This document shows, one piece after another, positions 19,922-39,705 of a stretch of 64,000 nt of DNA. The DNA lies in NCBI GenBank assembly GCA_014621425.1, contig JAANBB010000044.1:62001-126000 (forward strand), read 5' to 3'. The stretch comes from Cylindrodendrum hubeiense. Lineage: Eukaryota > Ascomycota > Sordariomycetes > Hypocreales > Nectriaceae. The notes beneath the pieces are model-generated. The model saw nothing but the letters and a program-made list of their open reading frames with translations. It was not told where the DNA came from and searched no databases. The position numbers were made by a program, and so were the translations under genes. How positions within the stretch are numbered: position 1 is the first letter of the stretch; the number at the start of each line of letters is the position of its first letter.

Positions 19922-20866
19922 TTATGGAAGACAAGCCAATGCTTGGTTCAGTATTTCAAACAGCCGTTCATCGTCCCCGTGGCGAACCCAGAAGACATTT
20001 TTCGGTCGAGTAGTAATTCCCCACCAGTCAGCCACCGTCATTCCAAGCGTAAGCTGAGAGGTCGTTTCCACCTCAACGTTGATCAGTCGCCCTTGAAACA
20101 TCTCTGGCTCCAACAGAAACAGAGGCACACATGGACCATGAAGAGGAGCGCCATTCCAGCCATATTTCTTGAGGTCGAACGACTCGGAGAAGGTTAGCAT
20201 TTCGGCCAGGGCGATGGCACAATTTGTTCCAAGTTTCTTCATTGCATTAAGGCGTTCTCGCGTAGAAAGCATCTCATGCGTCACATCGAGTGGCAATAGC
20301 GTAAGTTTGACACCGGAGCCAAAAATCCCCTGGGCGGCTTCGGGGTCGACATACACATTGAACTCTGCCGTAGGTGTAATGTTTCCAACTTCGAAATACG
20401 CCCCAGCCATTGCGACAACCTCCTGTATGCGAGCCGCAATATCAGGTGCAGTCAACAGAGCTAGAGCGAGATTTGTCAATGGAGATAATGAGCAAATCGT
20501 CACCGTCTGCGGAGGTTCGCTGCGCAGTGTTTCGATGATGAAGTCAACACCTTGTTTCGTAGAAGGCTTGATAGTCGGAACTGGCAACGTTGGGCCGTCC
20601 ATTCCCGTCGGGCCATGAACGTGATCAGCAATCACAAGATCGCGCTTGATTGGGGTCGAGGATCCGGCAAAAACAGGAATTTCGGGGCGTCCAGTGAGCT
20701 CCAATAGCTTGAGAGAGTTTTCGAGTGTATAGGAAAGATCAATATTGCCGGCAGTTGCAACAAGACCCATGACTTCGAATCTGTCTGGCAGTCCAAGCAT
20801 CAGCATAATAGCTGCCGCTTGATCCTGACCGGGATCCGTCAAAATGATGACCTTGCGAGGCGCCAT
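19922..20866 (-). CDS. Inosine-uridine-type nucleoside hydrolase
   Basis: Hydrolyses ribonucleosides to base plus ribose; in this neighbourhood uridine to uracil is the likely reaction. The single exon encodes 314 residues, the family's normal size. Recognisable blocks are the N-terminal metal loop (TDPGQDQAA), VATAGNIDLSYTLEN, the adenine/uracil-side block ICSLSPLTNLALAL, the AEFNVYVDPEAA motif, and TLGMTVADW with the C-terminal Asp ligand. The usual metal loop is DxDPGxDD; here the first Asp reads as Leu and the last as Gln, while the middle two Asp remain. That could weaken calcium binding or mark a subfamily. First gene of the putative uracil cluster, minus strand; its upstream region has GATA words. 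Confidence 0.88.
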   Translation of the reverse strand: MAPRKVIILTDPGQDQAAAIMLMLGLPDRFEVMGLVATAGNIDLSYTLENSLKLLELTGRPEIPVFAGSSTPIKRDLVIADHVHGPTGMDGPTLPVPTIKPSTKQGVDFIIETLRSEPPQTVTICSLSPLTNLALALLTAPDIAARIQEVVAMAGAYFEVGNITPTAEFNVYVDPEAAQGIFGSGVKLTLLPLDVTHEMLSTRERLNAMKKLGTNCAIALAEMLTFSESFDLKKYGWNGAPLHGPCVPLFLLEPEMFQGRLINVEVETTSQLTLGMTVADWWGITTRPKNVFWVRHGDDERLFEILNQALACLP

Positions 20867-21746
20867 GATGAAGCAGATGATATGTAGCGCATGTACAGTA
20901 GTTTAGTTGGATGTGTGAGAATCTGCGCTAGATGCGGGTAAATCGACGGTTCAAGATGGTTTTAGATTGATGATCCAGAGCTCTAGCATCAATAAATAAT
21001 TTTAGCTAGACCACCAGGGAGGCAATTTAGCCTAAATCTCAACTTTCGGTGAACACATATTACGATATCCCCACACAGGAGGCGGATTACACACTCCCTC
21101 GATGTGCCTCTATGAGGCCCACTATGAACAGATAGGGAGCAGTACGGTTATCTGCTTATCTTTTCTTGGCAACTATCTGCACCCCCAGCCTAAGCTCACT
21201 TTCTGAAGCCTGACAAAAGTCCCACTCACCAATTATCCAGTACTAAACTTACTCATTGGAGGTGGTAAGATTCCTAAACCTGACTACAGCCGTTGCAGTT
21301 CTTGCTATTCAAACTTGGTCCACATTTGAGGCTTCGGTCACGGGCTATCCTGGCAGCTTTTGAGGCCATCGGCAAGAAAAAGTAAAAGCGAAGGTCCTGC
21401 GTCAATGAGACTGTGACCCCTTGCAAGAGGATATCAATTCAAGAAAATTACAACTTCAACCGTCCAGCTACTTTGATGAGATTTAATCTTCTTGGTTTAT
21501 CTGCTAAGCTCACCTACCGAAAGGTATGAGGAATCTAGATGGATAACTATGGCGACGTAGTTGGCTCATGAGCCAAACTAGGCAACAAATACTCAATTGT
21601 TCACTGTTTGTATTTAAAAGTCTTAGCAGGTTTTACCGCGTTGATAGGTTGTAGTATTTGAAGATCCACAAAGCAGCTTCGCCGATGGCCTTCCTGCAAC
21701 ACGTTCCGCACTTCGCAGTTGCTATCGCGCATGTTTAGCGATATGA
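20867..21746. other. Intergenic region upstream of the nucleoside hydrolase
   Basis: About 880 bp, holding the nucleoside hydrolase promoter and the 3' flank of the amidase. No gene seen. GATA words are listed separately. Confidence 0.5.
21130..21161 (-). promoter_or_regulatory. Three HGATAR sites upstream of the nucleoside hydrolase
   Basis: AGATAG at 21130 and TTATCT (AGATAA on the other strand) at 21148 and 21156. The last two are only 8 bp apart. Paired sites of this kind bind AreA/NIT2-type nitrogen regulators. Confidence 0.45.
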
Positions 21747-23708
21747 TTAAGATGCGACTTCATTTTCAAGCAATCTTCCGATTTCCTCTGCAATAGCCAT
21801 GACCCTTTCTTCCGTCAATCGCCGCCCAATAATCTGGACTGCTGTCGGAGCACCTTCATAAGCCTCTGGATCATCTATGTCAAACCATCAGTCACTGTGT
21901 AGAACATAAAAACATATCAACCTACACTCAGCCTGCACCAAGTTGTCGATCTCTGTCAATGGTTTGAAAGCTGCATTTTTAATATCGATCGTCTTATCAG
22001 CGAATGAGACGGGCACAACAACGCTCGTGAAGTCTAGAAGATTGACCGCACTTGCATATCCATAGTACTTGAACTGGTCATGTCGTATGGCAGCGGTGGG
22101 TGTGATTGGGGCAATGATGGCATCCAATTCTACGCCATGTTTCTTCTCAAATGCCTGAATTGCAGCTAGGTATTCGCATTGGTATTTCCACTTCTCCAGT
22201 TGCGCGTCCCAAACCTCGTTTATGTCAATCTTGGACATAGATGGGTCGATCAAAGCCGAGATGTGCGGAATGGCAGGCTCTCCAGAGGCCTTGAGCGTGT
22301 CGAAAATGTCCTAAACAAGGTCAGTGTACGTGTTAATGGAGAACTAAAGAACACGTACAGTTCCTCCGTCGGAGGCATAAATCCTGTTGATTAGTTCAAC
22401 GGCATGTGGATGCTTGTAGGGCTCCCAAGCAATTACCGAATGCCCAGCGTTCCGCACCTTCTCGACAACCGTCTCGACGGCCCGGATAATAGGTGGATGA
22501 GGAAGAACCTGTTGAATCAGTCAACCATCCATAACACAAGGGACGTAGTACCAACATTGCCATCGCAGGCGTAGAACCCGAGAGTCAATCCACCAGATGC
22601 GATTTTGGACTTCACTGCGTCCTCTTCCGCCTGTCTCCACGGCATCGGAATGACCTTTGAGTCATGAAGCCACGGCTGCTGTTCCAAAACTGAAGTCATA
22701 AACAGCCTCATGTCTGCTATGGAATGACAAAGCGGCCCACATACACTGTGGACCGTTTCTTGCCCCTCCATGCTGTTTGCCATCTTGGCGTATGGGAGGC
22801 GCCCGTGACTTGGTCGAAGACCGTAAAGGAAATTGAAAGCCGATGGAACTCGAATTGAACCGCCTATTTTTGTCAATCCCGGGATATTCTATTGCCTTAT
22901 TCAAGAGTTTGAGCTTACCAATATCGGTGCCAACGCCAATAATACCACCACGAAAGCTGACCAAAGCGCCCTCGCCGCCTGAGCTCCCTCCGCAAGACCA
23001 ATTCTTGTTTCGGGGATTCACTGTTCTGCCGATGATGTTGTTGAATGTTTCGCAAGCCATCAAACTTTGGGGAACACTGGTTTTGACGTAGAATACGGCT
23101 CCAGCCTGATGAAGTAAAGTGACAAGAACCGATTCGTCCGTTTCATACTTGCCAATCCAATCGACGTATCCCATTGTGGTTTCGAGGCCCTAGCCGAAGT
23201 CGTTAATTAGATTACCTTTCAGTAAATATTGACGTCCTCTGTGAAATCTTTCCATACCTTGATGCGAAATTGATCCTTCAAAGAAATAGGCAAGCCGTGA
23301 AGAGGTCCCACCGTCTTCTTGTTTTGAGCATAATACTCGTCAAGTTCCTTCGCTCTCGCCAAGCCTGTTTCCGGAAAGAACTCCAGAGAGCAATTTACCT
23401 ACGCAATACTGAGCATATTTGCATGTGTCAAAGCTAGGGAAGATCCGTACCAGTTGATGCGCCAATGCAGCTCTCTTGCAAAAGGCCGTAGTCACTGCAA
23501 CAGATGTGAGATCACCGGCAGCTATTTTCTTCACAATATCTGTAGCCGATGATTCAGTGATGGCCAGTTCTTCAGCAGTCAAAAGGCCACTCTCTTTCGG
23601 ATACGCCATCGCGGAGACATCATCTTGTGGCATTTCAATACGCCATTCAGTTGGGATGGCTGCATCGATGCGACTTTTCTTTTCCGCAGCAATCGCCTTC
23701 CACTCCAT
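21747..23708 (-). CDS. Amidase-signature enzyme (acetamidase-like), seven exons
   Basis: Ser-cisSer-Lys hydrolase of an amide or ureido bond, probably cytosolic. Exons read as 23708-23451, 23398-23258, 23189-22919, 22863-22552, 22508-22359, 22310-21926 and 21874-21747; all join in frame. The start MEWKAIAAEKK is typical of fungal AmdS-like enzymes. Catalytic Lys lies in LPISLKDQF, the Gly/Ser-rich signature in CGGSSGGEGALVSFRGG with the nucleophile in VGTDIGGSIRVP, and the C-terminal block is AYEGAPTAVQIIGRRLTEE. The complete protein is about 550 residues, as usual. The last intron uses GTAGGT after GAG-T; any other donor breaks the frame. Its position beside uracil-degradation genes suggests a substrate such as an amide or ureido intermediate, which is inference. 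Confidence 0.88.
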
Positions 23709-23873
23709 TTTGCAGCTCTTTCGGGATGGCAGAGGGGATATTACAGCCGTATCTGAGCTCTGCAGCAAAGAGTTAATAGTACTATGGGTAGAATGAGGCA
23801 AAAAAATGGAAATTATGTGTCACACCTCCAAAGGCGGGGTTTGCTTCATTTATACTTGGTTTCTTATCCGGAC

Positions 23874-24307: not shown

Positions 24308-25939
24308 TCAGGTCTGCGTCGGCATCGAAGTGTCTGCCTTGGTGTCCACGACATCCGCACTGCGCCACAATGCCGTAACCGTCTTGAGCTGAGTGTAAAA
24401 GTCGACTCCAGGTTTTCCATAAAACGTGCTCGTACCACCCCCAGCAACACTCTTCTTGTTGCCAGTAAAGCTGAACATGGGCAATGGCACTGGGATCGGA
24501 ACATTGATGCCAACTTGCCCAACCTCAATCTGTCGTCGGAAGGCCTCAGCTGTGGGTCCTGAGTTAGTAAATACCACAGTGCCATTGCCATATTCGTTTT
24601 TGTTGACTGTCTCTATGGCCTTGTCCAGAGAATCAACCGTCATGCAAAGAAGCACCGGCCCGAAAATCTCCTCACGATAGCATCTCATCGATGCCTTCAC
24701 ATCCGAGATGATGACCGGCGCTACCCAGTTTCCATTGGGATAGTTAGCCGGCTTGTAACCACGGCCGTCGAGTATAACCGTTGCGCCCTCCTCCTCTGCG
24801 CTTTGGACGAGAGCTTCAATGCGCGTCTTGCTTTCCGGACTGATAACAGGGCCTAAATCGGCGCCTTTCTCAAACCCAGCGTTGACTTGCAGGGATTTGG
24901 CACGTTCCACCAGTTCAGGTAACCAATTCTTCGCTTCCCCCACCATCAAGAGCACACTAACAGCCATGCATCTTTGCCCAGCTGCGCCGAACGCCGCACC
25001 AAGAATGGCATTTAGGCAGTGGTTTTTGTCGCAGTCTGGCAAAACCACCGCATGGTTTTTGGCGCCTAAATTAGCCTGTACACGCTTCCCGTTGGTTGAG
25101 GCCTTGGAGTGGATGTACTCTCCAGCTGCGTTGCTCCCGACAAAGCTGACAGCCTTGATAGCGGGTTGATCAAGGATAAAGTTGACAGTTGGGTGGGCAC
25201 CGTGGATGATATTTACCACACCATCGGGGAATCCGGCTTCTCGACAGAGCTCAGCAATAATTATAGCAGTTCCAGGAACGCGTTCTGATGGTTTGAGGAG
25301 CAGAGTATTTCCAGTGATCGTAGCGATCGGGAGACACCACAGAGGGATCATAGCAGGGAAATCTATCAAGTCAGCATGGCTTCGGTGAAAGGCTTTGATG
25401 AAGCCGATCTTGGGGCTGGTCAACTTACTGAATGGGCACACTGCTGCGACCACACCTAGCGGCTCGCGGTAGGTCCTTGTCTCCATGTCCTTTGCAACCT
25501 CAAGGACTTCGCCTTTGAGCAGTTCCGGTGCGGCACAGGCGGCTTCAGCAACCTGCAACCCTCGAAGCACATCTCCCTTAGCATCAACGAATGTCTTGCC
25601 CTGTTGTCGTGTAATCCTGGCTGCCAATCGATCCATATTGCTCCGCAGTAACGAGACAAACTTGAACATGATTTGCTGGCGAGCCATCACACTCTTCGCC
25701 CGCCACAGCGGAAATGCCTTCTCGGCCGATGCCAGAGCGGCGGCCAGTTCCTCATCGGTGCTCTGTGGAACCCTAGAGATCAGGTAATTGGTGGCAGGGT
25801 CATGGACGTCGAAGAACTTGGTGCTCTTCGATTTGAGGAATTTGTTGTCGATGACATACGGTATGTCTTCAACCGTTTCGGGTTCTTCGTGCGTCGTTAC
25901 GGATGGTAACGGCGGAGACTCCAGTGGTAGCCCAGCCAT
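24308..25939 (-). CDS. Methylmalonate/malonate-semialdehyde dehydrogenase (CoA-acylating), paralog 1
   Basis: NAD-dependent oxidation of a semialdehyde with CoA to acetyl-CoA or propionyl-CoA. Two exons, 25939-25429 and 25362-24308; the 66-nt intron 25363-25428 has no stop and is a multiple of three, so a naive frame wrongly inserts 22 residues between CPF and PAMIPLW. Visible: the substrate/CoA loop PAMIPLW, NAD fold VSFVGSNAAGEYI, the family signature NLGAKNH with Asn where hydrolytic aldehyde dehydrogenases carry the general-base Glu, the catalytic Cys in [17 protein letters not shown], and VGQVGINVPIPVPLP with the FSFTG block. Length about 520 residues, normal. The N-terminus is acidic and does not look like a mitochondrial presequence, unlike housekeeping enzymes of the family. 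Divergent from paralog 2 across a 789-bp promoter. Confidence 0.92.
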   Translation of the reverse strand: MAGLPLESPPLPSVTTHEEPETVEDIPYVIDNKFLKSKSTKFFDVHDPATNYLISRVPQSTDEELAAALASAEKAFPLWRAKSVMARQQIMFKFVSLLRSNMDRLAARITRQQGKTFVDAKGDVLRGLQVAEAACAAPELLKGEVLEVAKDMETRTYREPLGVVAAVCPFSKLTSPKIGFIKAFHRSHADLIDFPAMIPLWCLPIATITGNTLLLKPSERVPGTAIIIAELCREAGFPDGVVNIIHGAHPTVNFILDQPAIKAVSFVGSNAAGEYIHSKASTNGKRVQANLGAKNHAVVLPDCDKNHCLNAILGAAFGAAGQRCMAVSVLLMVGEAKNWLPELVERAKSLQVNAGFEKGADLGPVISPESKTRIEALVQSAEEEGATVILDGRGYKPANYPNGNWVAPVIISDVKASMRCYREEIFGPVLLCMTVDSLDKAIETVNKNEYGNGTVVFTNSGPTAEAFRRQIEVGQVGINVPIPVPLPMFSFTGNKKSVAGGGTSTFYGKPGVDFYTQLKTVTALWRSADVVDTKADTSMPTQT

Positions 25940-26728
25940 GATGGTATGGGACGATTGCGTCGCTGGTAAATGGAAAACAGATTAACGGTGATAAAAACCC
26001 TTAATTCCAGGCGTCAATGATGCAGGATGAAATTCTGGGCATTATCGACAGGATTGAACGATCGATCGAGTGTGGTTTTAAAGTCCGATAGCCCAACCGT
26101 ACATGCATTGCAGTATTGTATCAAGATCATACTTGATTACCGTGATATCCACTTCTCAATATTCACACCCAGTACAGAATGACGCTGCGAATCGCTTCTG
26201 AATCCCTTAGCAGCATGTTCTACTCCATTTCCCTTCAATGCACATGGTTCGATCAGTAACACGTTGTGGTAAGCCAGAGATAAGATTGCGATATGATTGT
26301 GACAGGGGCTAGAGGCGTGGAATTAAAAAAGTCGCTGATAACGGAAGGTGATAACAAAAATCGATAACCAACGCAGAGCAGATAAGGCACGTTGTAATCG
26401 TAGCCAATTAGCCCGAAGAAAACAGAGAACTTGGCACTAGAAGCGCACACAACACGGTGTGGTTGTATCCCTCGAGTCGGTGCCCCGCGATTCCGCCATT
26501 TGTTTCTCGTCTGGAGACGGGTCTTGCGCCCAGAGTTCCATCTTAGCCGTGCTCACTTCTGCTCCAGCACACTCTCCACCACCTGATACCGACCCTATGG
26601 GTAATTCTCACTGTCACGGTCAGCAGCTGCGGGGTCAAGGGTTTTAATTAGGCATTTGAACACATCCAGCTTCCTGTGGCACCAAAGTGCTTCGAAATCC
26701 CCTCAAAGCCGTCAGCTTCGTTCTGGCC
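25940..26728. other. Shared divergent promoter of the two semialdehyde dehydrogenases
   Basis: A 789-bp region between head-to-head paralogs. No gene seen. Its main feature is the GATA cluster described separately. Confidence 0.6.
26278..26385. promoter_or_regulatory. Cluster of five HGATAR sites
   Basis: AGATAA at 26278, TGATAA at 26336, TGATAA at 26349, CGATAA at 26362 and AGATAA at 26380, all on the plus strand and four of them within 50 bp. By chance about one site per 340 bp is expected on both strands. This fits binding by an AreA-type nitrogen regulator of both divergent genes. Confidence 0.6.
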
Positions 26729-28813
26729 ATGGCCAGTCACTCCAGCCAAAGCTCAATCGCGGGCCTGAGCGGCGGTAAGTTGTTCTCTTCATTTTAGTTG
26801 TTGTAATACCATTGAAATAGTGCTAAGCTTTGGATCAGGTCCAATGTCACATCATGGATACAGCGAGGTTTGTCGGAGTCTCTCTCAACCTTCGCCCAGG
26901 TTGAACCTTAACTCCTACGCCTCATACTGACATATTATCAGAGCTCATTCTCGGATTTTAGCGGATCTTTCACCATAGATCCCGGCGTCTCGCATAACTT
27001 TATTAACAACTCGCTCGTCTTATCCAAAACCCGCACCTGGACCAAGGTCCATGATCCAGTCAGCTCAATTCTCAATCGCATTATCGCGGGTTGTCGACTA
27101 ACAATGACCATTTCTAGGCTACACAAGCCTTCTTAACTAGAGTTCCCGAGTCCACCGTTATGGAGGTGCAGCATGCCGTTGCTGTGGCATCGGCAGCACA
27201 GCCAAACTGGGCCTCAACTTCCTTTCAGGCTCGAAGACTAAAACTGTTAGACCTGGTCAATATTTTGTACCAAAATGGCCCCCGCATTGCAAGTTATCCG
27301 CGTACTTGAACTTCCAAGGGGCAGTTGCTAACCTCTAATTAAAGATCAACTGTATCATAGAGGAAGGTGGCAAGACTATGCAGGATGCAAAGACAGAGTT
27401 TGACAAAGGCATTGACGCCATTCTTACTGCCACCGCAATCGGTAGCGAGATGATGGGAACTTATTCTTCGAATCACCCGGTCAGGATACACACCTTCCAC
27501 GAGCCTGTCGTATGTTTAGCCTCCTCAATATCCTTGCCAATTTCTGTTCATTACTAATATTATTAGGGCGTCTGTGTCTCTGTCACGCCTTACAACTTCC
27601 CGTTCATGATACCGCTATGGTCTGTTCCACTAGCTATTATGACGGGAAACACCGTCGTCTTAAAGCCGTCCGAGAGGACACCCACAGCCGCCATGATCTT
27701 GGCAGAGAGTTTTCTCCAGGCCGACTTCCCTCCAGGAGTATTTAATGTGGTTCACGGCGGAGCCAGTGCTGTTAATGTTCTACTTTCTCAACCTGCCGTT
27801 ATGGCGGTCAGCTTCGTAGGGTCCGACATCGCAGGAGAACGTGTATGTGAACATGCTCGAGCGAACAGAAAGCGGGTACAAGTTGAAACTAGCGGCAAGA
27901 ACCACGGAGTGATTATGGAGGATTCAGACAAGATTTCAACACTGTACGCGATTGCAGGAAGTGCCTTTGGCGCAGCGGGCCAAAGATGTATGGCTTTGAG
28001 CTTGGTAGTATTTGTTGGATCGGCCAATGAATGGCTTCAAGACCTTGTGGAAATTGCCCAGTCTCTCGTTGTTGGCTGCGGCACCAATCCTGAAGTGGGC
28101 ATGGGACCTCTCATAAGCGCATCTGCAAAAGAACGAGTTATTAGTATTATTAACAGCGCGGAACAAGAAGGCGCCAGAGTAGTTTTGGACGGGCGATACT
28201 GCTCTGTGGAAGGATATCCTGATGGCAACTTTGTGGGCCCAACCATCCTGACCAACGTCAAAACTTACATGCAATGTTACCAGGAGGAAATATTTGGGCC
28301 TGTTCTTATCTGTCTTGAAGTGGAGACGTTAGATGAGGCCATTGATATCATTAACGAAAACCGGTGTAAGTTATTTCCCCATGCAAGCACGTCCGCCCTT
28401 CATTCTCCTTGCTTTCAATCTCCACTCTCATGCTCACTGCTCTCGTTGTATAAATTCGCATGAATGCATAATTAACGAGCATAGATGGCAATGGGTGTAC
28501 ACTATTTACCTCAAACCCCAAGACCGCCCAGACTTTCCAGCAGGAAGTGAATATCGGCCAGATCGGCATTAATGTTCCGGTTTTGGGTAAATTGGATAGT
28601 CTCATTTGGTCTCGGTGCATGCTGATAATCATTTAGTTCCGTCGGGCCCATTACCTCGAACGAGCAATAAAGATTCGTTCATCGGCGGTAAGTAGTATGT
28701 CCTCAATCATTAATTGCTCATCAGGCTGATGCATCCTCATAGATATCAGTGGGCAAGGACGAATATGGCAATTCTTCACAATGACGAAGACTGTGACGAC
28801 TTTATGGCGCTAG
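26729..28813 (+). CDS. Semialdehyde dehydrogenase paralog 2, nine exons, with a Glu at the general-base site
   Basis: Member of the methylmalonate-semialdehyde dehydrogenase family. Exons read as 26729-26774, 26839-26867, 26942-27058, 27118-27288, 27345-27509, 27567-28365, 28485-28586, 28637-28687 and 28743-28813. Joined, it shows [50 protein letters not shown], the catalytic Cys in [37 protein letters not shown] and the C-terminus TKTVTTLWR. Two oddities: the 27289-27344 intron fits only as a GC-AG intron (GCAAGT donor, GCTAAC branch), and the block that reads NLGAKNH in paralog 1 is ETSGKNH here, placing Glu where CoA-acylating members have Asn. About 520 residues. The gene is intact under this model; the first two small exons are tentative. 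Confidence 0.82.
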
Positions 28814-28944: not shown

Positions 28945-29622
28945 TCAGTTTTTTCCCGTACCGAACAGGCGGTCGCCAATATCCCCAAGACCCGGCTTCA
29001 CGTAGCCATGGCTGTCGACTTCCGGGTCAACAGCTCCCACGACGAAGCGAGAAGACTCGGGCCATACTCGACCCGCGTTCTCCAATCCAATTTTGCTAGC
29101 CAGAAGTGATACAAATGTAACTTCACTTAGGCCCCAGTCCCTGTAAAACAGATCAGTCTCTCTCTCATAAGTGGGAATGATACTGGATGAGTGGGATCTT
29201 CATCTAAGGCAAACGTACTTCAGAATACTAATGACCGCTGAGGCGGTGCCACCAGTCGCCAACAAGGGATCCAAGACATAGGCGTGTGTGATCTTCGGAC
29301 TTTTTGGTGGAAGCTTGTTGTAGTATTCGATTGGCTGCAAGGACTTTGGATCCCTAAATAGGCCTAGATGGTAGACGACCAGGTCTGTATCCGCAGGCAA
29401 TTGTGATGTAAATGGCTCGCTCATCACTATTCCTGAACGGAGAACAACCACAATGGCCACTTTCTCGCCAGGAACAATTGGCTTGATGGCATCTTTGGCA
29501 ATCAGCTTGGTGAGGTCGCTTGCAAGAGCATACACCTCAACGGGTTTTAGCGATTGGTCGCGGAACGTTGCCAGTTTTGACTCAAACTCTGAATTTGAGC
29601 TGATCACGACGTTTGTTGCCAT
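28945..29622 (-). CDS. Uracil phosphoribosyltransferase, bacterial Upp type
   Basis: Makes UMP from uracil and PRPP. Two exons, 29622-29220 and 29140-28945, with a GTACGT donor and CAG acceptor. Blocks seen: VVVLRSGIVM (usually LRAG), GLFRDPKSLQPIEYYNKLP, the PRPP-binding loop VLDPLLATGGTASAV, LLASKIGLENAGRVWPE, VVGAVDPEVD and the uracil-binding end GYVKPGLGDIGDRLFGT. Length about 200 residues, normal for Upp. The pattern YRDP/EPVEYYNKLP is that of Upp-type enzymes, not of the Fur1-type enzyme 5 kb away. The gene ends about 130 bp from the 3' end of the semialdehyde dehydrogenase and is divergent from URC4, sharing its promoter. Confidence 0.92.
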
Positions 29623-30173
29623 GGTTGGGATAAAAGTTGGGAGTTTTTAGGCTTGCCGAGAGGGTGGACCAAGAAAATGATCTGGCGACTGATATCGTGT
29701 AAACTTACAATAAAAGTTGTGAGGACGACATTAACGATACAACTGCTTGATGAAAATTGGTTGGAATGTCTTGTTCCAATATACTAACAATTAACAGCAG
29801 TTTCACGATATGACGGTGGCTTATCTCAGGTTGCATCCCTGTGCTGGGCCAGTTGCGATGTTCCGTATCATGGCATAATCGTTATCGTATGCCAAGTGCT
29901 ACGCTCACCCCTCAATGGGAGATAGAAGCATGCACTCAGTGATCGCGATAAGGATTAATTGGGCTAACCACATTGTTCGATGAGTGGATACCGCAGTACC
30001 TTCGACTTGCGATGCTCGCCAGCAGACATCGTGTGTAAGTTGTGATCATGAGAAGGAAATCCCGATCGTCGTCCGTATTCTTGATATTCTTTTTTCTCGA
30101 ACCTGTCTTTCCACAATATCCAGATTAAGATTATCCTTGAACATATTCTGCAGCTGCGATTAATTTTGCTGCA
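29623..30173. promoter_or_regulatory. Divergent promoter of Upp-type UPRT and URC4
   Basis: A 551-bp region with HGATAR words at 29821 (TTATCT), 29882 (TTATCG) and 29946 (CGATAA). This density is only modestly above chance, so the sites are suggestive. Confidence 0.4.
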
Positions 30174-31692
30174 ATGGATACCGACAGAGAATATTTACTG
30201 TCCCTCCAGGCTGTTCGAGCCAACGCCAGCAAAGTCCTCGACGCTGCAAATAATGGCGAGTTGATTCACTTTGACTATGACGATCAACGCATGGCTGTCG
30301 TCGCCGACTTTGTCACCGACGTTATCAAGGTTAGTCGCGAAAAAAAATGAACTCTAGGACCATCATTATTTAGTCCCTACTGGAGTGATCCCTTCTATTA
30401 GAACATATCGTCTGATGCAAACTCTTCCAGCGTGACTTCGGTCCAGATAAATTTGATCAGATCCCGCCGCATGGACGGTGGCAGCATTTCGACGTTGGAG
30501 GCATTGCACGCGTGGACGCGCTTTGCGCCCAGTGGAAAAAGGAAGGCTGCGAAGATGTGAAGGAAGTCACTCGCCGGCTGATAGACTTGTTTTTCGTGTC
30601 AGTTCTCCTTGATGCAGGTGCTGGTGATCACTGGCGGTTCAAAGAGCCAGACACGGAAGACTTCTACACCAGGAGTGAAGGCATTGCTGTGGCGTCGCTG
30701 CACATGTTTACGGCTGGAGCTTTTGCATCGGATGCATCCAAAAAATGCTCTGTTGATGGTAATCCTCTCCTGGTCACAATTATCTTGTAGCTCTACTGAT
30801 CAGATGACATAGGAGCCGGGCTATCAGCACTAGATGATGACACCTTCATCCGATATTTCCAACTGTCCTCGGAAAACCCCATGGTCGGTGTCTCATCTCG
30901 AGTTCAATTGTTGAAAGATGTGGGAGCGTCTCTCTTGAAACTCCCGGAAATCTACGGACCATCAGGTCGCCCAGGAAACATAGTTGGTGAGTTGGCTTCT
31001 CGACACGGTTCATTCATGATCAGACATTTTACTAACTTCGTCGACTTTGAGATTACCTCACAAGCTCCGACGTCGACTCTAAGACTTTGGACTATGAGGT
31101 TCTTTGGTCATGCTTGCAACGTACCCTGATCCCCTCCTGGCCAGCAAACCGTACCCGAGTCAAGGATCAGCCCATTGGTGATGCATGGCCGCTCGAGATT
31201 CTCAGTCTGAGAGCCCAGAGAGATAATGACACACGTCCTGGAACCACGATCCAGCCATTCCATAAACTAACACAATGGTTGGCGTATTCTCTGACGGTGC
31301 CCTTTACAAGGGTCCTTGGCTATAGTTGGGCAAAGGCTGACCTGGGAACTGGTCTGCCCGAGTATCGGAATGGCGGTCTCTTTGTGGATTTGCAGGTCCT
31401 GCGCCTGAAGAAGCATGATTTGGAGCAGGGTCAAAAGATGTCAGGCCAGACACTTCCACAGTTCGATGCAACGTCGGATGTGATAGTTGAGTGGAGGGCG
31501 ATGACCGTCGCATTGTTGGATCAACTATATGGCATCATTTCTGACCGATTTGGAGCACTGGGAGTCAAATTGAGCATGGCGCAAATGTTGGAGGCTGGTA
31601 CTTGGAAGTCGGGTCGTGAGTTGGCTGCGACGAACAGACCAGAAACCAAGTCGAGCCCAATTCTTGTAAACGGTGACGGTACTCTTTATTAG
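30174..31692 (+). CDS. URC4: URC4-like uracil catabolism protein (DUF1688)
   Basis: DUF1688 protein required for uracil use through the URC pathway; its exact reaction is not settled. Four exons: 30174-30329, 30431-30758, 30813-30986 and 31052-31692. The protein starts MDTDREYLLSLQAVRANA, the domain's opening repeat of Ser/Arg/Ala helices, and contains GRWQHFDVGG, LFFVSVLLDAGAG, WRFKEP, RSEGIAVASLHMF, then in the last exon PIGDAWPLEIL, FHKLTQWLAYSLTVP and GLPEYRNGGLFVDLQVL, all signatures of DUF1688. Length is about 430 residues, as expected. Some 660 bp separate it from URC1 downstream on the same strand. Confidence 0.93.
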
Positions 31693-32352
31693 TTGATAAA
31701 TACGACTATCAAGATACTTATCATGAGCAAAATGATGTTTAAAATAAATGATATTATTTAGTTTTTTGCAAAATCTAGAATTGATCCTCAAACCTCAGTT
31801 CACCCATGTCTGTGTTGAATTGAGCTACTACCTACCCTACACCAACTGTCAGCTATTTGCGGAATCTGACCCTAGGCTCCATTTTGAAGATCCCTCGTCA
31901 GACTGTCATTTGCAAATGTGCAGCTCTATTCGTATTCGGCCTGGTGTGACGTTAGAAGACGGGTTGTGAACTCATGCACCGGTGGCAATCGGCAGTGTGC
32001 GATCTGGATGAAAGATTGCTGGCGGAGAGCGCCGGGGTCTCTCTGGCTGTCACGGTAGGGGTGCACATATGACGCTCTAGAGGCGTGTGTTGGGCTAATC
32101 GAGGCGTGCTTCGCGTTATCGCTCTCCTGGAAGTCGATAATAATCTGCCGCTAAGTATTTTTGCCAAACACCCAAAACCGTATCTGATCTCGATTGTCTT
32201 TATCCTGCAAATACGATGCGGCTTGGGACGCAGTGACGCTCTTATCACGTCCAATACCTTATCGGACATCGCATCACGGCACAAGCCAGCAATTCCTTGA
32301 CCAGTTCAAGACTTCAAGTATCCCATAACTAGCGCTTCTGTCGTCCGTCAAA
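31693..32352 (+). promoter_or_regulatory. URC1 promoter region
   Basis: 660 bp upstream of URC1 without another gene. HGATAR words on the minus strand are at 32116 (TTATCG), 32242 (TTATCA) and 32259 (TTATCG). Confidence 0.4.
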
Positions 32353-33957
32353 ATGTCAATCAACACTTCATATTCCATTGATTCAGAGCCTCCAGCCCCC
32401 ATTCGAAGTGGAGGAAAACAAGTCAAAATGGCCGCCGTACCAGTCCCCAGCACCAATGGTGCTTCTGCCCCATCTAGTGAGCCATGGGCAAACCCTCTAA
32501 GCAAGCGATTCCAAAGTCGTATTATTGTGAGTTCAAAGACCCATCTTATTCCTTCACGAGAGAAACACGAGCGCTGATGCCATACCGATACAGCTCACGA
32601 CTTACCCTGGGCAAAGCGTTGTTGATCCTGTCACCCTGAACTGGGGCGCCGCAGACCCTGAAGAGCGTGGACCTGTTGTCGTTTCTCGAGCAGGCGAGAC
32701 ACTCAAGAAGCGCAATGCCATCGGCGCCCACGGTGGAAGTTACAGCGTGTACAACGCTCTCGCCATTGCCAGCGGGGATCTTCCGCCCGACTTTAAGCCC
32801 GATTTCCGAAACACACAGCCAACATTTGATTTCCCAATGCAGCCAGCCTGGAGTGACCCATCTAAAATCGTCTCGATGGATCCCTTTGGCCATAATATCG
32901 CTCGATACTACAAGACACATCTCGACTCAGGACTTGATATCCGACCAACTATTGCCATTACTCGAGCACACATGCGAGTCTCAGAAATTGTTACATCAAT
33001 TGAGAGCGGTCAGCTCCAAGTGGATGGCAATGTGATTATCAACAAAGAGGGCGATGTGAGAGTAACCAAGGTCGCTGTAGAACCCGTGTGGTTTTTGCCC
33101 GGCGTTGCTGCTCGATTTAACGTTGACGAAGGAGTTCTGCGCCGTTCCCTATTTGAGTTCACTGGTGGAAGTTACCCTGAACTGGTAACGAGACCGGACG
33201 TGAACGTCTTTTTACCTCCTATTGGTGGCTTAACTGCTTATATCTTCGGCCCGCCTGAACGTGTATCGGACCCCAGTGTTAAGCTAGCGCTTCGAGTGCA
33301 CGACGAATGCAATGGCTCGGACGTTTTCCAATCGGACATCTGCACATGCAGACCGTATCTAGTGTATGGCATCGAAGAAGCCATCAAGGAAGCGCAAAAT
33401 GGTGGATCCGGCGTCGTCATCTATTTCCGCAAAGAAGGCCGCGCACTTGGAGAGGTGGTCAAGTACTTGGTGTACAATTCACGAAAGCGAGGTGGCGATA
33501 CAGCCGATCAGTACTTTGCGAGAACCGAGAACATTGCCGGAGTTAGAGATGTAAGTGCTACGAAGATCTCAAGAGCAACCCTTTGACTAACTTTCATAGA
33601 TGCGATTCCAAGCGTTGATGCCGGATATTCTCCACTGGCTGGGGATCAAGAAGATCGATCGGATGTTGTCCATGTCCAATATGAAGCATGATGCTATTGT
33701 GGAGCAAGGGATTCCTATTCTCGAGCGCGTCCCGATCCCCGACCGTAAGACCACATCATACCCTACGATTCTTGATGTCGTCAGCGTCAAATTGCAATGC
33801 TAACTTGCTCGCAGATCTCATTCCCTCAGATTCAAGAGTAGAGATCGACGCTAAGATCAATGCTGGCTACTTTACTGATGGCAAGAAGTATACAGACGAA
33901 GAACTCAAGGAAGTCAAGGGTCGTGGATGGCAGAGCTGGGAAGATGTGGCTCATTAG
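32353..33957 (+). CDS. URC1: URC1-like GTP-cyclohydrolase-II-related protein
   Basis: A paralog of GTP cyclohydrolase II that in the URC route is thought to open the pyrimidine ring of a uracil-derived nucleotide. Exons: 32353-32526, 32594-33550, 33600-33744 and 33815-33957. The zinc triad of the family is intact as C-X10-C-X-C in ECNGSDVFQSDICTC. The following catalytic block reads YFRKEGRALGEVVKY, equivalent to the REGRGIG motif of true cyclohydrolases, and the long N-terminal region (AIGAHGGSYSVYNALAIA, SMDPFGHNIARYY, RPTIAITRAHM) is the URC1-specific extension absent from riboflavin enzymes. Length is about 472 residues. It is downstream of URC4 on the same strand. The alternative, a riboflavin-pathway enzyme, is unlikely because of the extension and the context. 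Confidence 0.93.
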
Positions 33958-34971
33958 GCGCATAGAAAATTAGCCTGTTTGGTTTCTAGACACATAAAAT
34001 TAAATGTGTCGTCCTGCTCGAGTTGGATAATGTGTATTAAATTATGGCATGCATTACTGTCTCTATGTTAGTGAGATTCATCCTCAACAAGTACCGCAGA
34101 ATCACAAAGACAATCTCAATATTAATTATATTCTTTTATTTGTTGATTCATGGAGCCTGATAGTTAAAGTACGCCATTACCTATGCTAAGAAATCATACC
34201 CCAAGTCCTAGGTACCTTGATTGTATTTGTGAGCGAAGAAGACTACCCTTTTGGATGCACTTTTCACAGTCTACAGAATTTTCGTACATTTCAAGAGCAG
34301 GGTATCTCAGATACTGACATTTAAATTTCGTGATACATATCAGATCTGACATGTGACGGGTGGTGTGCCCCTGTGGCCGGCTTATGTCCAAGCACTGCAA
34401 TTTTAGCATTTGAAGGGGAGTTGAGGTGTGACGTTAGCCTGAACTGGAAGATAAGAAAACTGACCCACCTAGGTGCTTTATCTTATCTCGGCCAGAGGGG
34501 TGGATGTTCAGCGCAGACGGAATTATGCGCTCAAATCAGCTTCTGCCACCCAGATAACCATTTTCTATCTGTCTTGATATGGATATTTTCACACCGTTCT
34601 CTGCTATCTTATCAGCAACATCACACCCTCATCTTAACGACACACCTCATGACTGGCCAAAGATTGGGCGCCTAAAGTATTCAAGCGCGACAGGCTTCGC
34701 AACCAGCAAACCTTCCACAGAGCAGCAAGCATCGCAACAGGTTGACATGCAATTGAGGCTTTCAGAGGAGGCAAAAAGGAGAATAGACAAGGTGATGACA
34801 ACCTGTTGCAACGAGAAAGAGTCCAAAAAGCAGCTGAAGGAATTATATTCAAGCTAGGGATTCGTATTCGATACACGTAGGGCACAAGCTGGACGCTCTT
34901 CAATGCGTGAAACCCACTGTTAATTGATACATTCAAAGATACTATGCGTGATACCGCAACTTCAACCTTGC
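33958..34971. other. Intergenic region between convergent URC1 and the Fur1-type UPRT
   Basis: About 1 kb. It holds only a 92-codon plus-strand frame at 34579-34857 (ATG start, charged helical C-terminus, no recognised domain). That frame could be a small gene but has no support beyond length; I do not call it. Confidence 0.45.
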
Positions 34972-35891
34972 TCAATCAACTGTTCCGTAAAATCGATCTC
35001 CAAAGTCACCCAATCCAGGGCTGATATGGCTGTTCCTCGTTAGCTAGGTGGCAAGCATGAATGGGAAAACAGTGGTAACTTACTTGGATGCCGTTAGCTC
35101 CTCGTCTAATGCCGCTGTGACTATGTGCAATTCTGGGAAGCGGGAGCCGAGCGTGTTTAATCCTTTGCGGGACGCCACCAAATTAATAAAAAAGATTTGC
35201 TCTTCTGGTACACCAGCGGCCTTGATGATGTCGACAGCCATGCATGCAGAGCCCCCGGTTGCAAGCATTGGTTCTAGTATGAACACTGCTAAAGGGGCAC
35301 AACTATTAGCTTGGGCGTGGCTCGTGTAACAGACGGCCGAAGTCTACCTTTTCTCGTCACATTCTTGGGGAATTTCGAATACAGATGTGTGGGAAGACAT
35401 GTTGACTCATCCCGCTGAATCAAAATCTTTCCATAACTCAACGGCCCGCTGAAACTGAATTAGCATGACTTCGTTTCCGAAGCAGCTCAGGTGTAGCGTA
35501 CGTGTAGGTCCTCCGCAACGCATTTTCCATGCTGGCACCAGCACGGAGTATGCTCACTCCGCAGACTTCTTTGGCTGCCAAAGCACCCTGGAAGGTGGCC
35601 CCTGTCGGTGTTGTGACATCCTGAGCCTCGACTGGCAGCAGATTCAAGGCTGGAAAGGTAAACGTCAGTGGCGAGCTTGAGATGCAGAGAAAGAGAGTTC
35701 ATACCTGCCGCCATAACTAGAGTGGACACTCTTTCGACAATATCGGCGAATTTCGTGGAATCCGTTTTCGCATCTCGCAGGATTGTCATCAGTGTTTGCA
35801 GATGGTTGTCCTGAGGCAAGATGGTCACGCGACTAGAAGTCGGTGCATCAACCACACTCATTTTAACACTGGGGATCTCCGATGACGGCAT
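34972..35891 (-). CDS. FUR1: Uracil phosphoribosyltransferase, Fur1 type
   Basis: Converts uracil and PRPP to UMP. Five exons join in frame: the first ends in LVMAA, the next encodes LNLLPVEAQDVTTPTG and CGVSILRAGASMENALR, then GPLSYGKILIQRDE followed by LPTHLYSKFP, then the PRPP loop FILEPMLATGGSACMA, and finally HISPGLGDFGDRFYGTVD. The CGVSI.RAG and KILIQRDE blocks identify the yeast/animal Fur1 class, distinct from the Upp-type gene in the same cluster. Start is taken at the ATG at 35891 (MPSSEIPS); the ATG at 35861 (MSVVDAP) is equally possible. About 220-230 residues. Divergent from the PRPP synthetase, which makes its co-substrate. Confidence 0.9.
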
Positions 35892-36459
35892 TTCTTCTTC
35901 CAAATTTCTTTCCAGAGAATTTCCAGTCGTGATGTCTCAAGTTGAAAGATGTTTGTAATGTCTCGACTGAAGACATGACAGAGTTCAATTCCCCGCACTG
36001 CTTGATGGTTCTTATCGTCACAATCATTATCTCGGTAGAAAGGGTACACTTTGGTGGCGTGTGGGTCTGATAAGACCCCTTCTTCCATTATCAGCTCAGC
36101 TCCGACCTTAGCGATAAGCCCTCAAGGGCGGGGTGCTTCATTCCTCTCCATATCTTGGCGATCGATAAGATTGCGGAAGCGTGTATCTATGGGTGATCTT
36201 TCCAATCAGTATGAGCAGGTTAATCAAGACATGGGCAGGTGAACAATCAACATCTTGGGTATCACCCGACGTGAGTGGTTTGTTGCTCATGACAAGGGAC
36301 ACGAAACGCTGCAGATGTGTGTGGTTACAGAGACAGGGTAAGGTGACAGAAAGCTCAATTGAGACCAATTAGAAAGCATGAATAGTGCCTGATGCGCAAT
36401 CACGATGAATTAAATGTTGCATGCATTTACCTACCACAGTCGTTGCACTCTAATTAATC
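35892..36459. promoter_or_regulatory. Divergent promoter of Fur1-type UPRT and PRPP synthetase with four HGATAR sites
   Basis: TGATAA at 36068, TTATCA at 36088, CGATAA at 36112 and CGATAA at 36163 lie within 101 bp. The last one forms GATAAGATTGCG (36164-36175), which also occurs at 26279-26290 in the dehydrogenase promoter. Confidence 0.55.
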
Positions 36460-37771
36460 ATGACAAATCCCGGAATACGGTTTCTGGCTGGTGAGCCATC
36501 ACTCGAGATGCTTGCTTCTCTGATCTGTATCTTATTTTGTAAACCGCAGGAAGCAGCCATCCCGCGCTTGCACAGCTTGTGGGCGATAGGTCAGTCACTT
36601 CCGACAGGTCTATCTTCCCAAGATCAACCCCCTCATGGCCAATAACCAAGGCTAATGAGCAATTCCAATGCAGTATCGGATATGCAACAGGATCAAAAGG
36701 TCTCTTGAGCTCAAAATTCTCCAATGGCGAGACTATGGTTACCATTGGGGAGTCGGTTCGCGACGTTGATGTCTTTATCTTACAGACGGCCTCAGAGTCA
36801 GTTAATGATGCGCTGATGGAGCTGTTGATCGCAATCAGCGCTTGCAAGATGGCTTCTGCCAGGCGCATAACCGCAGTTCTACCATGCTTTCCATACGCTC
36901 GGCAAGATAGAAAGGACCGGAGTAGAGCGCCAATTACGGCAAAGCTTGTGGCCAATATGTTGGAGGTGGCAGGATGCAACCACGTAATAGTAAGAAACCC
37001 CACCAACATTGAAAACAAGAGATACTTTGATCACTTACCGTCTCCTCTCACTAGACAATGGATTTACATGCCTCTCAAATCCAAGGATTCTTCAACATCC
37101 CGGTTGATAAGTACGTGGTCGTTTCACTTTGCACAAGAATATCAGCCAACTAACTTTCCGTCTTTTTAGTGTTAGATGAAGACAGTCCATACTAGGAGGA
37201 CTCTGCTAAGTTAGATATAGCTCTATGCGGAAAAGGTCATGATTGAGTATATCAAGCGCGAGTTCGCGGTGACAGATTTAGTGATGGTTTCTCCAGATGC
37301 TGGAGGGGTGAAACGGTACACTTCCTAACACTATAATTCCTCCATCAACGAATCTGCAAACTAACTTTGCCCAGAGCCGCAACCATAGCAGACAAACTAT
37401 CGATCGACCTCGCAATAATCCACAAGGAGCGCAAAATAGTAAACCAGGTCAGCCGTATGATACTGGTTGGTAACGTTGCTGGGAAAACGGCCGTGATAGT
37501 CGACGATATTGCAGACACGTGTGGCACCCTTTCGACGGCTGCAGGCTTGCTCAAGGAATCAGGTGCAGAGCGTTGCATTGCAATCGTCACCCATGGGTTT
37601 CTCAGCGGTCCATCTGTGACAGTGATTGAGAGCAGCGACCTGGAGTACCTGGTGGTCTGCAATACCCTGCCGCTTCCGGAACATGCCCGCTCTTGTTCGA
37701 AAATTCGACAACTGGACGTGAGCTACCCCATTGCCGAGGCGATTCGCAGAACACACAATGGAGAGTCGTGA
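36460..37771 (+). CDS. Ribose-phosphate pyrophosphokinase (PRPP synthetase)
   Basis: Makes PRPP from ribose-5-phosphate and ATP. Exon 1 gives MTNPGIRFLAG; a 66-nt-scale intron leads to SSHPALAQLVGD; a third exon contains FSNGETMVTIGESVRD, CFPYARQDRKDRSRAP (the flexible loop) and AKLVANMLEVAGCNHVI; next TMDLHASQIQGFFNIP (divalent-metal site); then LYAEKVMIEYIKREF and VSPDAGGVKR; the last exon has IIHKERK, the PRPP site VIVDDIADTCGT and ends EAIRRTHNGES. All catalytic blocks are present. The junction near 37110-37220 is not clean: the obvious GTACGT donor at 37111 leaves the frame one base off at the LYAE exon, while a GTTGAT donor restores it but loses three residues (VDN). Either the intron border is unusual or the copy has a small lesion. 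Confidence 0.85.
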
Positions 37772-37992
37772 GTAAAGCACTATGAAAATAAAGACGATGA
37801 AGCGGCTCTAACTTCTGTCTAGGATATCCATTCTATTCTCATAATACGTTACTAGTGTAAAATCGGACTTGGCGATGTCATGGTCGCAGGTGAACATCAA
37901 CAGCCAGTTTTCCACTTGGCCTCATCTGAACCAACCTGGAGTCTTGATCTAAATGCCTATTATTAATATTAAATCTCAACCCTTTGATGCTC
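37772..37992. other. Short 3' intergenic region between convergent genes
   Basis: 221 bp between the PRPP synthetase and the MOSC fusion; likely both polyadenylation regions. No feature recognised. Confidence 0.4.
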
Positions 37993-39705
37993 TTATACCT
38001 GATCACAATCAATTTTTATTCGCCCCTTCCCGCGACTCACACAACTCAACATAGTAGTCTGCTTTTGCCCCTCATCAAGTGCGATACCATTGTGAACAAT
38101 ATCGCCTCCGCAATGTTCTACCATGCATGTGCCACAATTACCCACGAGACACGATGAATCCACATCAAACCCCGCCTCAACCAAAACTTCCAAAAGCGAC
38201 TTTTCCTGAGGGACTGCCAGGATTCTGCCAGTACGCTTGATCTCGACTTCAAATGGTTCCCCCTTGCCAACTGAAGGCCCGCCAAAGGATTCGTAATGCG
38301 TACGTGAGCGCGGATACCCGCGCTTTGTTGCCAAACTTTGACAAGCCTCGAGAAGTGAAGATGTACCGCAAACGTAAATCTTTGTGTCGAATTTCATATC
38401 GTTGCTTGACTTGGGAATGACATTATGAGGATTGAGGCGTTGACTTTCGTCCTTGGCATAGATGGTAGTGTGGTCGGGGGGAAGTTGCTGGAGATATGCG
38501 GCATCACGCCGACTACGCACGGCGTAGTGCACCTCGAACTGAGTAGTCGAGCCCATGAGTGTCCTGATTTCAGGAAGAAAAGCAGTGATTCCAATGCCAC
38601 CGACGATGAATATGTGCTTCTTTATGTCCTTAGACTCACCATACCACTGTTCTGTCTCGGTTTGGTTCCCCTTTGCCGCCTGGATGATATCTCCAACATT
38701 GAGATTGTTGTGCAAGTAACGTGACCCTCCCCGTGAGTTATTGTCAAGAGCTACCCCGAGCTCAAACTCCTTAAATGTACCAGATACGACTGAATACGCT
38801 CGCGAAAAGCATGAATCCGGCCCAAACTTTATTCGCACATGTGCAAAAGGGGGGAAATCCACGTCTGCCGCCTCCATGCTACCGTCGGCATCGGTGAAGA
38901 CAAATCTTTTGACCCTCGATGACAAAAGTGTCTTCTTGACAAGTTTAAAGGACCGCCAAGCTGTGGGTGTCAGGTCCCCAACTAGCCGACCATCCATATC
39001 TTCAATCCCCTGGGTCAGTCGAGTTCTGAAAATATCAAGCAGCTCTGTTCCAAGAGATGGAAGCTGGCTAAGCTCAGCCAACGCCTCTGCATTGCCTGTG
39101 TCGTGATAGAGGAAGTTTTGAACCCGTGACAGTGGCCAGGAAGGGTTGATGCGCTCGATGAGTTCGATTTTGTCGCCTTCTGTCACATATCCTGTCTTAA
39201 GAACCCGATAATACCACCCCGTCCGTCCTGAGGTCTGAGACGAACTAGATGCCTTCTTGTATTCGAATCGGTGGTTGAGCTTGAAGCAGGGCTGTCTAGG
39301 TTGTGAGACTTCAATAATGACTTCTTTGCCCAAGCGGTATTTATCCCCTACACAGACATTGCCTTCGTGCATGTGTGCTGCAGAGATGTTCTCGCCAAAG
39401 CCACCAGGCTTGAAGAGATGCTCACGGCCTGGAGCCTCATCGTTCCAAGTCTGGTAGTGACTCGAGCAATATTGGTGAACGGCCTTATCAATCCCACCGT
39501 GGAATTCAAAAGATTGCTCATCTCCAAGCAGGCCTAGCTCTGTCATCTGGACTGGGCCTTGCTGTGGTTGTTTGTTGATTGCCGTATGGATTCTAGCAGG
39601 GCCAAATGGCTTGACCGCTCCTAGTCGTAGACTAAGGATGACATCCTTTGGGGGTAGTGGAGCAACAGTTGTTTGGGCTTCCGACTGAGAGCTGCTAGAA
39701 GCCAT
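37993..39705 (-). CDS. MOSC domain-flavin reductase-[2Fe-2S] ferredoxin fusion
   Basis: A 570-residue single-exon protein. Residues about 25-185 form a YiiM-like MOSC domain (FHGGIDKAVHQY, GGFGENI, VGDKYRLG and the conserved Cys in QPRQPCFK). Residues about 250-470 are a ferredoxin-reductase module with FSRAYSVVSG for FMN/FAD, GGIGITAFLPEIR for NAD(P), and the C-terminal YVCGTSS. Residues about 485-570 are a plant-type ferredoxin with CLVGNCGTC (C-X4-C-X2-C) and the fourth Cys in MLSCVS. It should pass electrons from NAD(P)H to a molybdenum-cofactor or N-hydroxylated substrate site. The reductase layout matches phthalate-dioxygenase-reductase-like proteins. No signal or membrane segment. Its place at the end of the uracil cluster suggests a role with nucleobase derivatives, which is inference. 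Confidence 0.9.
   Translation of the reverse strand: MASSSSQSEAQTTVAPLPPKDVILSLRLGAVKPFGPARIHTAINKQPQQGPVQMTELGLLGDEQSFEFHGGIDKAVHQYCSSHYQTWNDEAPGREHLFKPGGFGENISAAHMHEGNVCVGDKYRLGKEVIIEVSQPRQPCFKLNHRFEYKKASSSSQTSGRTGWYYRVLKTGYVTEGDKIELIERINPSWPLSRVQNFLYHDTGNAEALAELSQLPSLGTELLDIFRTRLTQGIEDMDGRLVGDLTPTAWRSFKLVKKTLLSSRVKRFVFTDADGSMEAADVDFPPFAHVRIKFGPDSCFSRAYSVVSGTFKEFELGVALDNNSRGGSRYLHNNLNVGDIIQAAKGNQTETEQWYGESKDIKKHIFIVGGIGITAFLPEIRTLMGSTTQFEVHYAVRSRRDAAYLQQLPPDHTTIYAKDESQRLNPHNVIPKSSNDMKFDTKIYVCGTSSLLEACQSLATKRGYPRSRTHYESFGGPSVGKGEPFEVEIKRTGRILAVPQEKSLLEVLVEAGFDVDSSCLVGNCGTCMVEHCGGDIVHNGIALDEGQKQTTMLSCVSRGKGRIKIDCDQV

Follow-up and report, generated by a model that had tools for sequence, protein, structure and literature searches.

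A ten-gene locus of Cylindrodendrum hubeiense as a probable expanded URC cluster for obtaining nitrogen from uracil

The URC route of uracil degradation, described in the literature excerpts cited here and below as yielding urea and 3-hydroxypropionate (PMC3869809), comprises multiple uncharacterized steps (PMC7530994), and a locus of the ascomycete Cylindrodendrum hubeiense (Nectriaceae) raises the question of which further enzymes might be encoded beside the known genes URC1 and URC4. The locus lies in a stretch of 64,000 nucleotides, here called the window (GenBank assembly GCA_014621425.1, contig JAANBB010000044.1, positions 62,001 to 126,000; coordinates below count from its first letter). 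Ten genes at 19922-39705 encode, from left to right, a nucleoside hydrolase (minus strand), an amidase (minus), two proteins of the (methyl)malonate-semialdehyde dehydrogenase (MMSDH) family, MMSDHa (minus) and MMSDHb (plus), an Upp-type uracil phosphoribosyltransferase (UPRT; minus), URC4 (plus), URC1 (plus), a Fur1-type UPRT (minus), a ribose-phosphate pyrophosphokinase, or phosphoribosyl pyrophosphate (PRPP) synthetase (PRPS; plus), and a MOSC-reductase-ferredoxin fusion (minus), with three divergent gene pairs among them. Judging from the sequence, we think it probable that this is an expanded URC cluster, which would use a phosphoribosyl carrier to draw nitrogen from uracil and probably also from uridine.

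Spliced gene models were obtained with a home-made Viterbi gene finder trained on the long open frames of the window and were then corrected manually. All ten genes are free of internal stops, and their introns are GT-AG throughout, with the single exception of a GC-AG intron in MMSDHb. Each of the ten proteins matched its expected Pfam family above the cut-off: IU_nuc_hydro, Amidase, Aldedh (both dehydrogenases), UPRTase (both UPRTs), DUF1688, GTP_CH_N with GTP_cyclohydro2, Pribosyltran_N with Pribosyl_synth, and MOSC with YiiM_3-alpha and Fer2. The first-pass annotation had placed these ten genes together, and all of them proved intact and of the families it had named.

The core of the locus is the known URC set. 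URC4 (Urg3, DUF1688; 30174-31692, plus strand) matches PF07958 over its full length with 543.6 bits and is 99% identical to the deposited C. hubeiense protein G7Z17_g3552 (P0001); our model has 427 amino acids and the deposited one 432, with a five-residue gap at one splice site. Searches with URC4 gave no match in the PDB up to E = 1, that is, no solved relative by sequence, and no relative in the viral contigs searched. URC1 (Urg1, GTP-cyclohydrolase-II-like; 32428-33957, plus), which follows after 735 bp, carries PF12471 and PF00925 and scores 637.6 bits against NF005536/PRK07198 (cut-off, 403). Over 404 residues compared it is 59% identical to a chain of PDB entry 7eev, which is labelled GTP cyclohydrolase II and which we take to be the UTP cyclohydrolase of ACS Catal 2021, cited in PMC12507026. 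By this likeness URC1 is probably a uridine triphosphate (UTP) cyclohydrolase, an activity predicted for the fungal enzyme from sequence alone. The Upp-type UPRT (199 amino acids; 28945-29622, minus) scores 143.3 bits against PF14681, passes NF001097 (127.6 bits; cut-off, 114) and misses TIGR01091 (120.2 bits; cut-off, 208.35); its PRPP loop and uracil motif were aligned to those of 1v9s. The second UPRT (232 amino acids, five exons; 34972-35891, minus), assigned to the Fur1 type by eye, reaches 228.8 bits against PF14681. An intact URC1 of the Urg1/PRK07198 type, an adjacent URC4 and a UPRT (two PF14681 proteins) are thus present, as in a URC gene cluster. The same three families make up the URC1, URC4 and URC6 (UPRT) genes of Lachancea kluyveri, where ribosylurea and urea are intermediates and URC4 degrades ribosylurea to urea (PMC7530994), and they lie adjacent as the uracil-induced urg1, urg2 and urg3 of Schizosaccharomyces pombe (PMC2174524).

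Beyond this core, PRPS and MMSDHb recur with URC4 in other fungi. The PRPS of the window (317 amino acids; 36460-37844, plus; PF13793 and PF14572) keeps its catalytic motifs, namely, the flexible loop, the PRPP loop and the DLHASQ motif. A reading of the gene as a pseudogene was rejected, since modelling of two more introns and of a 1-nt exon removed the apparent breaks; this exon (37170) sits between introns of 59 and 50 nt (37110-37221) in a twin-intron-like arrangement. In a tree of chosen sequences (24 plus that of the window, and 33; P0123, P0125, P0159 and P0166 omitted), one branch (100/100) separates 25 cluster-type rows, the window included, from 33 housekeeping rows, and 26 columns carry changes specific to one or the other clade. 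One PRPS labelled Culex quinquefasciatus (P0123) scores among the fungal cluster-type enzymes, with 502 bits and 58% identity.

Of the two dehydrogenases, MMSDHa (24308-25939, minus) is a canonical coenzyme A (CoA)-acylating MMSDH, with 659 bits against TIGR01722 (cut-off, 448.5), and MMSDHb (522 amino acids, nine exons; 26729-28813, plus) is a divergent member of the family, with 509.8 bits against the same model. A tree of chosen rows (37 plus MMSDHb, and 26 plus 3) splits at 100/100 into 38 B-type rows, which include MMSDHb, and 29 canonical rows, which include MMSDHa. In Aspergillus, the MMSDH ald6 has been tied to the loss of 3-hydroxypropionate via malonate semialdehyde (PMC10061894).

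Linkage of these genes in fungi was inferred, rather than read from the DNA, from locus tags and from rows of the same species on equally long contigs, with the length of the longest contig of each protein taken as a fingerprint. The lists for URC4, PRPS and MMSDH were each limited to the top 120 of about 8000 scored. We used 105 of the 120 URC4 rows (8 nameless rows, six of Aureobasidium and one of Trichoderma ceciliae were omitted), the 25 of the 120 PRPS rows that were cluster-type by score and identity (omitted: P0123, P0125 [nameless] and P0159 [contigless]) and 58 MMSDHb rows (six nameless rows of the same stretch omitted); 5 housekeeping PRPS and 2 canonical MMSDH rows from species present in the URC4 list served as controls, and species with several strains were possibly compared across assemblies. 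Counted in this manner, URC4 is on the contig of cluster-type PRPS in 10 of the 12 rows that could be tested (housekeeping PRPS, 0 of 5) and on that of MMSDHb in 17 of 21 (canonical MMSDH, 0 of 2), and cluster-type PRPS and MMSDHb lie on one contig in 6 of 9. Some of the linking contigs are small, with 21,964 bp in Fusarium pseudocircinatum, 63,548 bp in Stylonectria and 87,618 bp in Clonostachys rosea. Where tags number along the genome, they place the genes close together: in Stylonectria PRPS is g4961, URC4 g4965 and MMSDHb g4967 on the one 63.5-kb contig, and close tags were also found in Cladophialophora (CLAIMM_03579/03582), Penicillium (N7523_000774/000779 and N7462_011475/011478), Sarocladium (NLU13_9331/9332) and Cosmosporella (115660/115680). 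Three predicted fusion proteins, two of MMSDH with UPRT (P0268 and P0283) and one of MMSDH with a PRPS domain (P0269), are most likely gene-model errors across neighbors and indicate gene adjacency as well. Conservation in related genomes, which the first-pass annotation had proposed as a check, thus favors PRPS and MMSDHb, in the form of shared contigs and, for several species, of close tags.

Bacterial loci were taken from a scan of genome contigs as the best 80 of at least 570 confirmed loci with a URC1 relative, and the ten cluster proteins were searched against their stored flanks by tblastn at 1e-6; contig ends clip many loci, and the counts are lower bounds. URC4 lies near URC1 in 77 of the 80, always within 3 kb, and a UPRT in 68, within 3 kb in 66. 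The proposal of a URC-type uracil cluster around URC1, URC4 and UPRT is supported. An MMSDH is present in four loci, each time within 3 kb and directly upstream of URC1, in the same-strand order MMSDH-URC1-URC4-UPRT (L079, L095, L118 and L126); by title they belong to a Pseudobacteriovorax, a Polyangiaceae bacterium, a Corallococcus and a Bacteriovoracaceae bacterium. The reading of the semialdehyde dehydrogenases as parts of the cluster is likewise supported. PRPS, nucleoside hydrolase and amidase, which the window adds, were found in none of the 80 loci by this search. By eye, a uridine-kinase-like gene was seen near URC1 in four of them (for example, L075:3352-3993), and 14 were seen to have ABC permeases of the nucleoside type no more than 5 kb away.

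The promoters of the locus share a motif. Compared with the rest of the window, no hexamer is more enriched in the seven promoter-bearing gaps than GATAAG, the motif of nitrogen GATA factors; noticed by eye before it was tested, it occurs at 14 sites in 4,848 bp (2.9 per kb), where shuffling gave a mean of 2.7 and none of 1000 shuffles reached 14. Other non-coding DNA from this genome, taken as a control, has 30 sites in 85,109 bp (0.35 per kb), and none of 5000 random block sets reached 14, the maximum being 10. Two sites (26279 and 26381) lie in the divergent gap between MMSDHa and MMSDHb (25940-26728), two (29820 and 29947) in that between the Upp-type UPRT and URC4 (29623-30173), three (31717, 32241 and 32258) in the gap upstream of URC1 (31693-32427), and four (36011, 36069, 36113 and 36164) in the divergent gap between the Fur1-type UPRT and PRPS (35892-36459). 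The nucleoside hydrolase has one site in its promoter gap and the amidase two, the MOSC gap being the sole one of the seven with none; among three convergent gaps, two have no site and one, before a 92-amino-acid open frame, has three. The title of a reference in PMC6950533 names HGATAR as the target of AreA. Because their promoters carry such GATA-factor sites, the cluster genes would probably be switched on once good nitrogen sources run out.

Could the core alone be functional, with URC1, URC4 and one or two UPRTs doing the work and the other genes being neighbors by chance or through shared chromatin? Such a core matches the loci in the literature and most of the bacterial ones, and the zero count for PRPS, nucleoside hydrolase and amidase in bacteria speaks for it. 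It does not sit well, however, with the linkage of PRPS (10 of 12) and MMSDHb (17 of 21) to URC4 against controls of 0 of 5 and 0 of 2, nor with the dedicated clades of both enzymes, the bacterial MMSDH neighbors of URC1 and the common promoter motif, and we regard it as unlikely.

A number of observations nevertheless weigh against reading the locus as an expanded URC cluster. The arginine of a VLRGLQV-type motif, which presumably binds substrate in MMSDH, is present in MMSDHa, whereas MMSDHb has lysine in place of its clade's arginine in this putative substrate-binding motif. We are thus unsure whether MMSDHb would act on malonate semialdehyde, and because of the replacement we assign it to its sequence family without calling it a proven malonate-semialdehyde dehydrogenase. 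Loss of the arginine as a trait of the whole B-type clade was ruled out: lysine occurs only in the window copy and its 94% relative P0241, glutamine in P0276, and arginine in nearly all other B-type rows covering the site. Linkage fails in 2 of 12 rows for PRPS with URC4, in 4 of 21 for MMSDHb with URC4 and in 3 of 9 for PRPS with MMSDHb; besides the small contigs named above, there are also several that run to megabases. The indirect way in which linkage was established and the prior sighting of GATAAG by eye belong here too. With PRPS in none of the 80 bacterial loci, the bacterial pathway therefore runs without a linked PRPS, and MMSDH is absent from 76 of them. For S. pombe, PMC3869809 describes an urg operon that also has a uracil transporter and a zinc-finger factor; by Pfam neither is among the ten proteins of the window, and a scan of seven flanking proteins gave one MFS transporter (10942-12237), about 7.7 kb outside. 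Finally, the trees disagree. In that of URC4 (55 chosen rows) the window copy stands among Nectriaceae copies and is not grouped with that of Stylonectria, whereas the PRPS tree pairs the window with Stylonectria; moreover, the linked copies of URC4 are spread over more than one clade, which takes at least 9 changes. The cluster therefore did not descend as a single block.

Further copies of URC1, URC4 and UPRT elsewhere in the genome make the cluster in the window an extra set. On contig C146 (179014-182203; L010-L011) a second URC4, about 70% identical, has an MMSDH (73%) as its convergent neighbor, and it is with this MMSDH (C146:180610-182203) that MMSDHa pairs in the tree (98/80); the 990 bp before the C146 URC4 contain three GATAAG. 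A second URC1 and a UPRT lie about 2.5 kb apart on contig C197, a third, more distant URC4-like gene (42%) lies on C98, and other PRPS genes are found elsewhere.

Outside the genes considered so far, the nucleoside hydrolase (314 amino acids, intronless; 19922-20866, minus) scores 286.5 bits against PF01156, and its best PDB match is RihA 3g5i (5.7e-64), the nearest solved relatives being pyrimidine-specific RihA enzymes. As it stays below the NCBIfam cut-off for RihA equivalogs (269.8 versus 433 bits) and passes only the broader PF01156, we call it RihA-like; its membership in a URC cluster is plausible from these relatives. The amidase-signature hydrolase (546 amino acids; 21747-23708, minus) scores 389.9 bits against PF01425, with a "fatty acid amide hydrolase" (6kvr) as its best PDB match. 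It was rejected as a urea-degrading step: fatty acid amide hydrolases lead among its solved relatives, and biuret and allophanate hydrolases score far lower. The MOSC-reductase-ferredoxin fusion (570 amino acids; 37993-39705, minus) carries PF03473, PF03475 and PF00111 and matches YiiM in the PDB; its flavin-reductase middle part is recognized from PDB matches to phthalate dioxygenase reductase, no Pfam family passing the cut-off there, and a 42% paralogue lies on C16 in the same genome. No URC link was demonstrated for the amidase (0 of 80 bacterial loci) or the MOSC protein (1 of 80, more than 6 kb off), fungal linkage of either not having been searched. Both had been put forward as pathway parts, a view that our results do not support: the amidase has the relatives named above and was seen in none of the bacterial loci, though its promoter gap contains two GATAAG, and the promoter gap of the MOSC gene contains none.

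These two proteins bring up another explanation, namely, that the locus degrades or detoxifies a modified pyrimidine, such as a nucleoside antibiotic or a damaged base, rather than plain uracil. The amidase would then strip a side chain, the MOSC-reductase would reduce an N-hydroxylated base, the hydrolase would free the base and the duplicated URC set would dispose of it. YiiM and YcbX reduce N-hydroxylated bases; the extra amidase and the YiiM-like protein speak for this explanation, and with URC1, URC4, UPRT, MMSDH and PRPS copies elsewhere in the genome the set in the window could be a specialized one. Yet PRPS and MMSDHb accompany URC4 in other fungi, the GATAAG sites suit nitrogen supply, and the 80 bacterial URC1 loci have no amidase and only the one distant MOSC gene, all of which makes this explanation distinctly unlikely. 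Nucleotide salvage, in which the cluster would mainly make uridine monophosphate (UMP) from uracil for RNA and URC1 and URC4 would burn only the excess, is highly improbable: the two UPRTs and the PRPS do come from families of salvage enzymes, but the MMSDH-URC4 linkage and the GATA-motif promoters are left unexplained and the genome already has other PRPS genes.

Returning to the expanded URC cluster, the pathway that we propose would begin with the release of uracil from uridine by the nucleoside hydrolase. A UPRT would join uracil to PRPP to give UMP, as is the function of its family, general kinases would convert UMP to UTP, and URC1 would open the pyrimidine ring of UTP, in line with the literature on its relatives. 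The product would give ribosylurea, probably as the 5-phosphate, together with a three-carbon aldehyde, which would be malonate semialdehyde or a related compound. URC4 would then split the ribosylurea, known as an intermediate from the literature and presumably phosphorylated here, into urea and ribose 5-phosphate. From the latter the cluster PRPS, given its conserved linkage, would regenerate PRPP and close the cycle. One or both MMSDHs, by family and conserved linkage, would convert the C3 semialdehyde to acetyl-CoA, and a urease encoded elsewhere would release ammonia from urea. The first-pass annotation had PRPS supplying PRPP; its place in the cluster stands, with URC4 on the same contig in 10 of 12 fungal rows, but the role is better put as recycling of the ribose 5-phosphate that the pathway sets free, which we find more likely than a mere supply of PRPP. 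The cluster in the window differs from the URC genes of L. kluyveri in having two UPRTs together with a separate-clade PRPS and two members of the MMSDH family; for L. kluyveri a urea amidolyase (URC3, URC5) is described, and C. hubeiense has a urease alpha domain elsewhere in its genome. For the urg locus of S. pombe, the description available in excerpt does not name PRPS or MMSDH. No URC cluster with a PRPP synthetase was recognized by title or abstract start among the matches listed from the openly licensed literature, which does not imply its absence from print.

Whether this can be extended to the Pezizomycotina as a nitrogen-regulated URC cluster with dedicated PRPS and MMSDH paralogues and a closed carrier cycle, which moved between fungal lineages, is to us an evenly balanced question. 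In the PRPS tree, Talaromyces proteolyticus and Xylariales sp. PMI_506 form a pair at 100/95, which recurs more weakly, at 94/64, in that of URC4 (P0072/P0094 and P0129/P0121). This pairing runs contrary to their classification, and cluster transfer between lineages is a possible explanation.

As for the limits of the locus, the functional edges may be MMSDHa on the left and PRPS on the right, because the amidase and the MOSC protein have no conserved link and the nucleoside hydrolase fits by family and one GATAAG only. The claim that no unrelated gene intervenes goes too far, both for the amidase and the MOSC protein and because the 92-amino-acid open frame (34579-34857, plus), with GATAAG at 34450 and 34482 just upstream, is also present. 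This frame, possibly an eleventh gene and possibly no gene at all, matched no Pfam family, and a genome search found no second copy. An Rfam scan of the window gave no match at the gathering score. Immediately beside the cluster lies a CHAT-domain protein with tetratricopeptide repeats (40432-43642), and a large, partial polyketide-synthase-like reading frame was seen by eye at 58766-63984.

In the literature cited on the URC route the fates of both the ribose phosphate and the C3 fragment are unsettled, and PRPS and MMSDH are candidate enzymes for these two ends. In a family known for biosynthesis, a PRPS clade that serves degradation would be out of the ordinary. If the proposed pathway is true, a paralogue of a biosynthetic enzyme would have been specialized for catabolism, and PRPP would serve as a recyclable handle, with uracil going in and urea and acetyl-CoA coming out.

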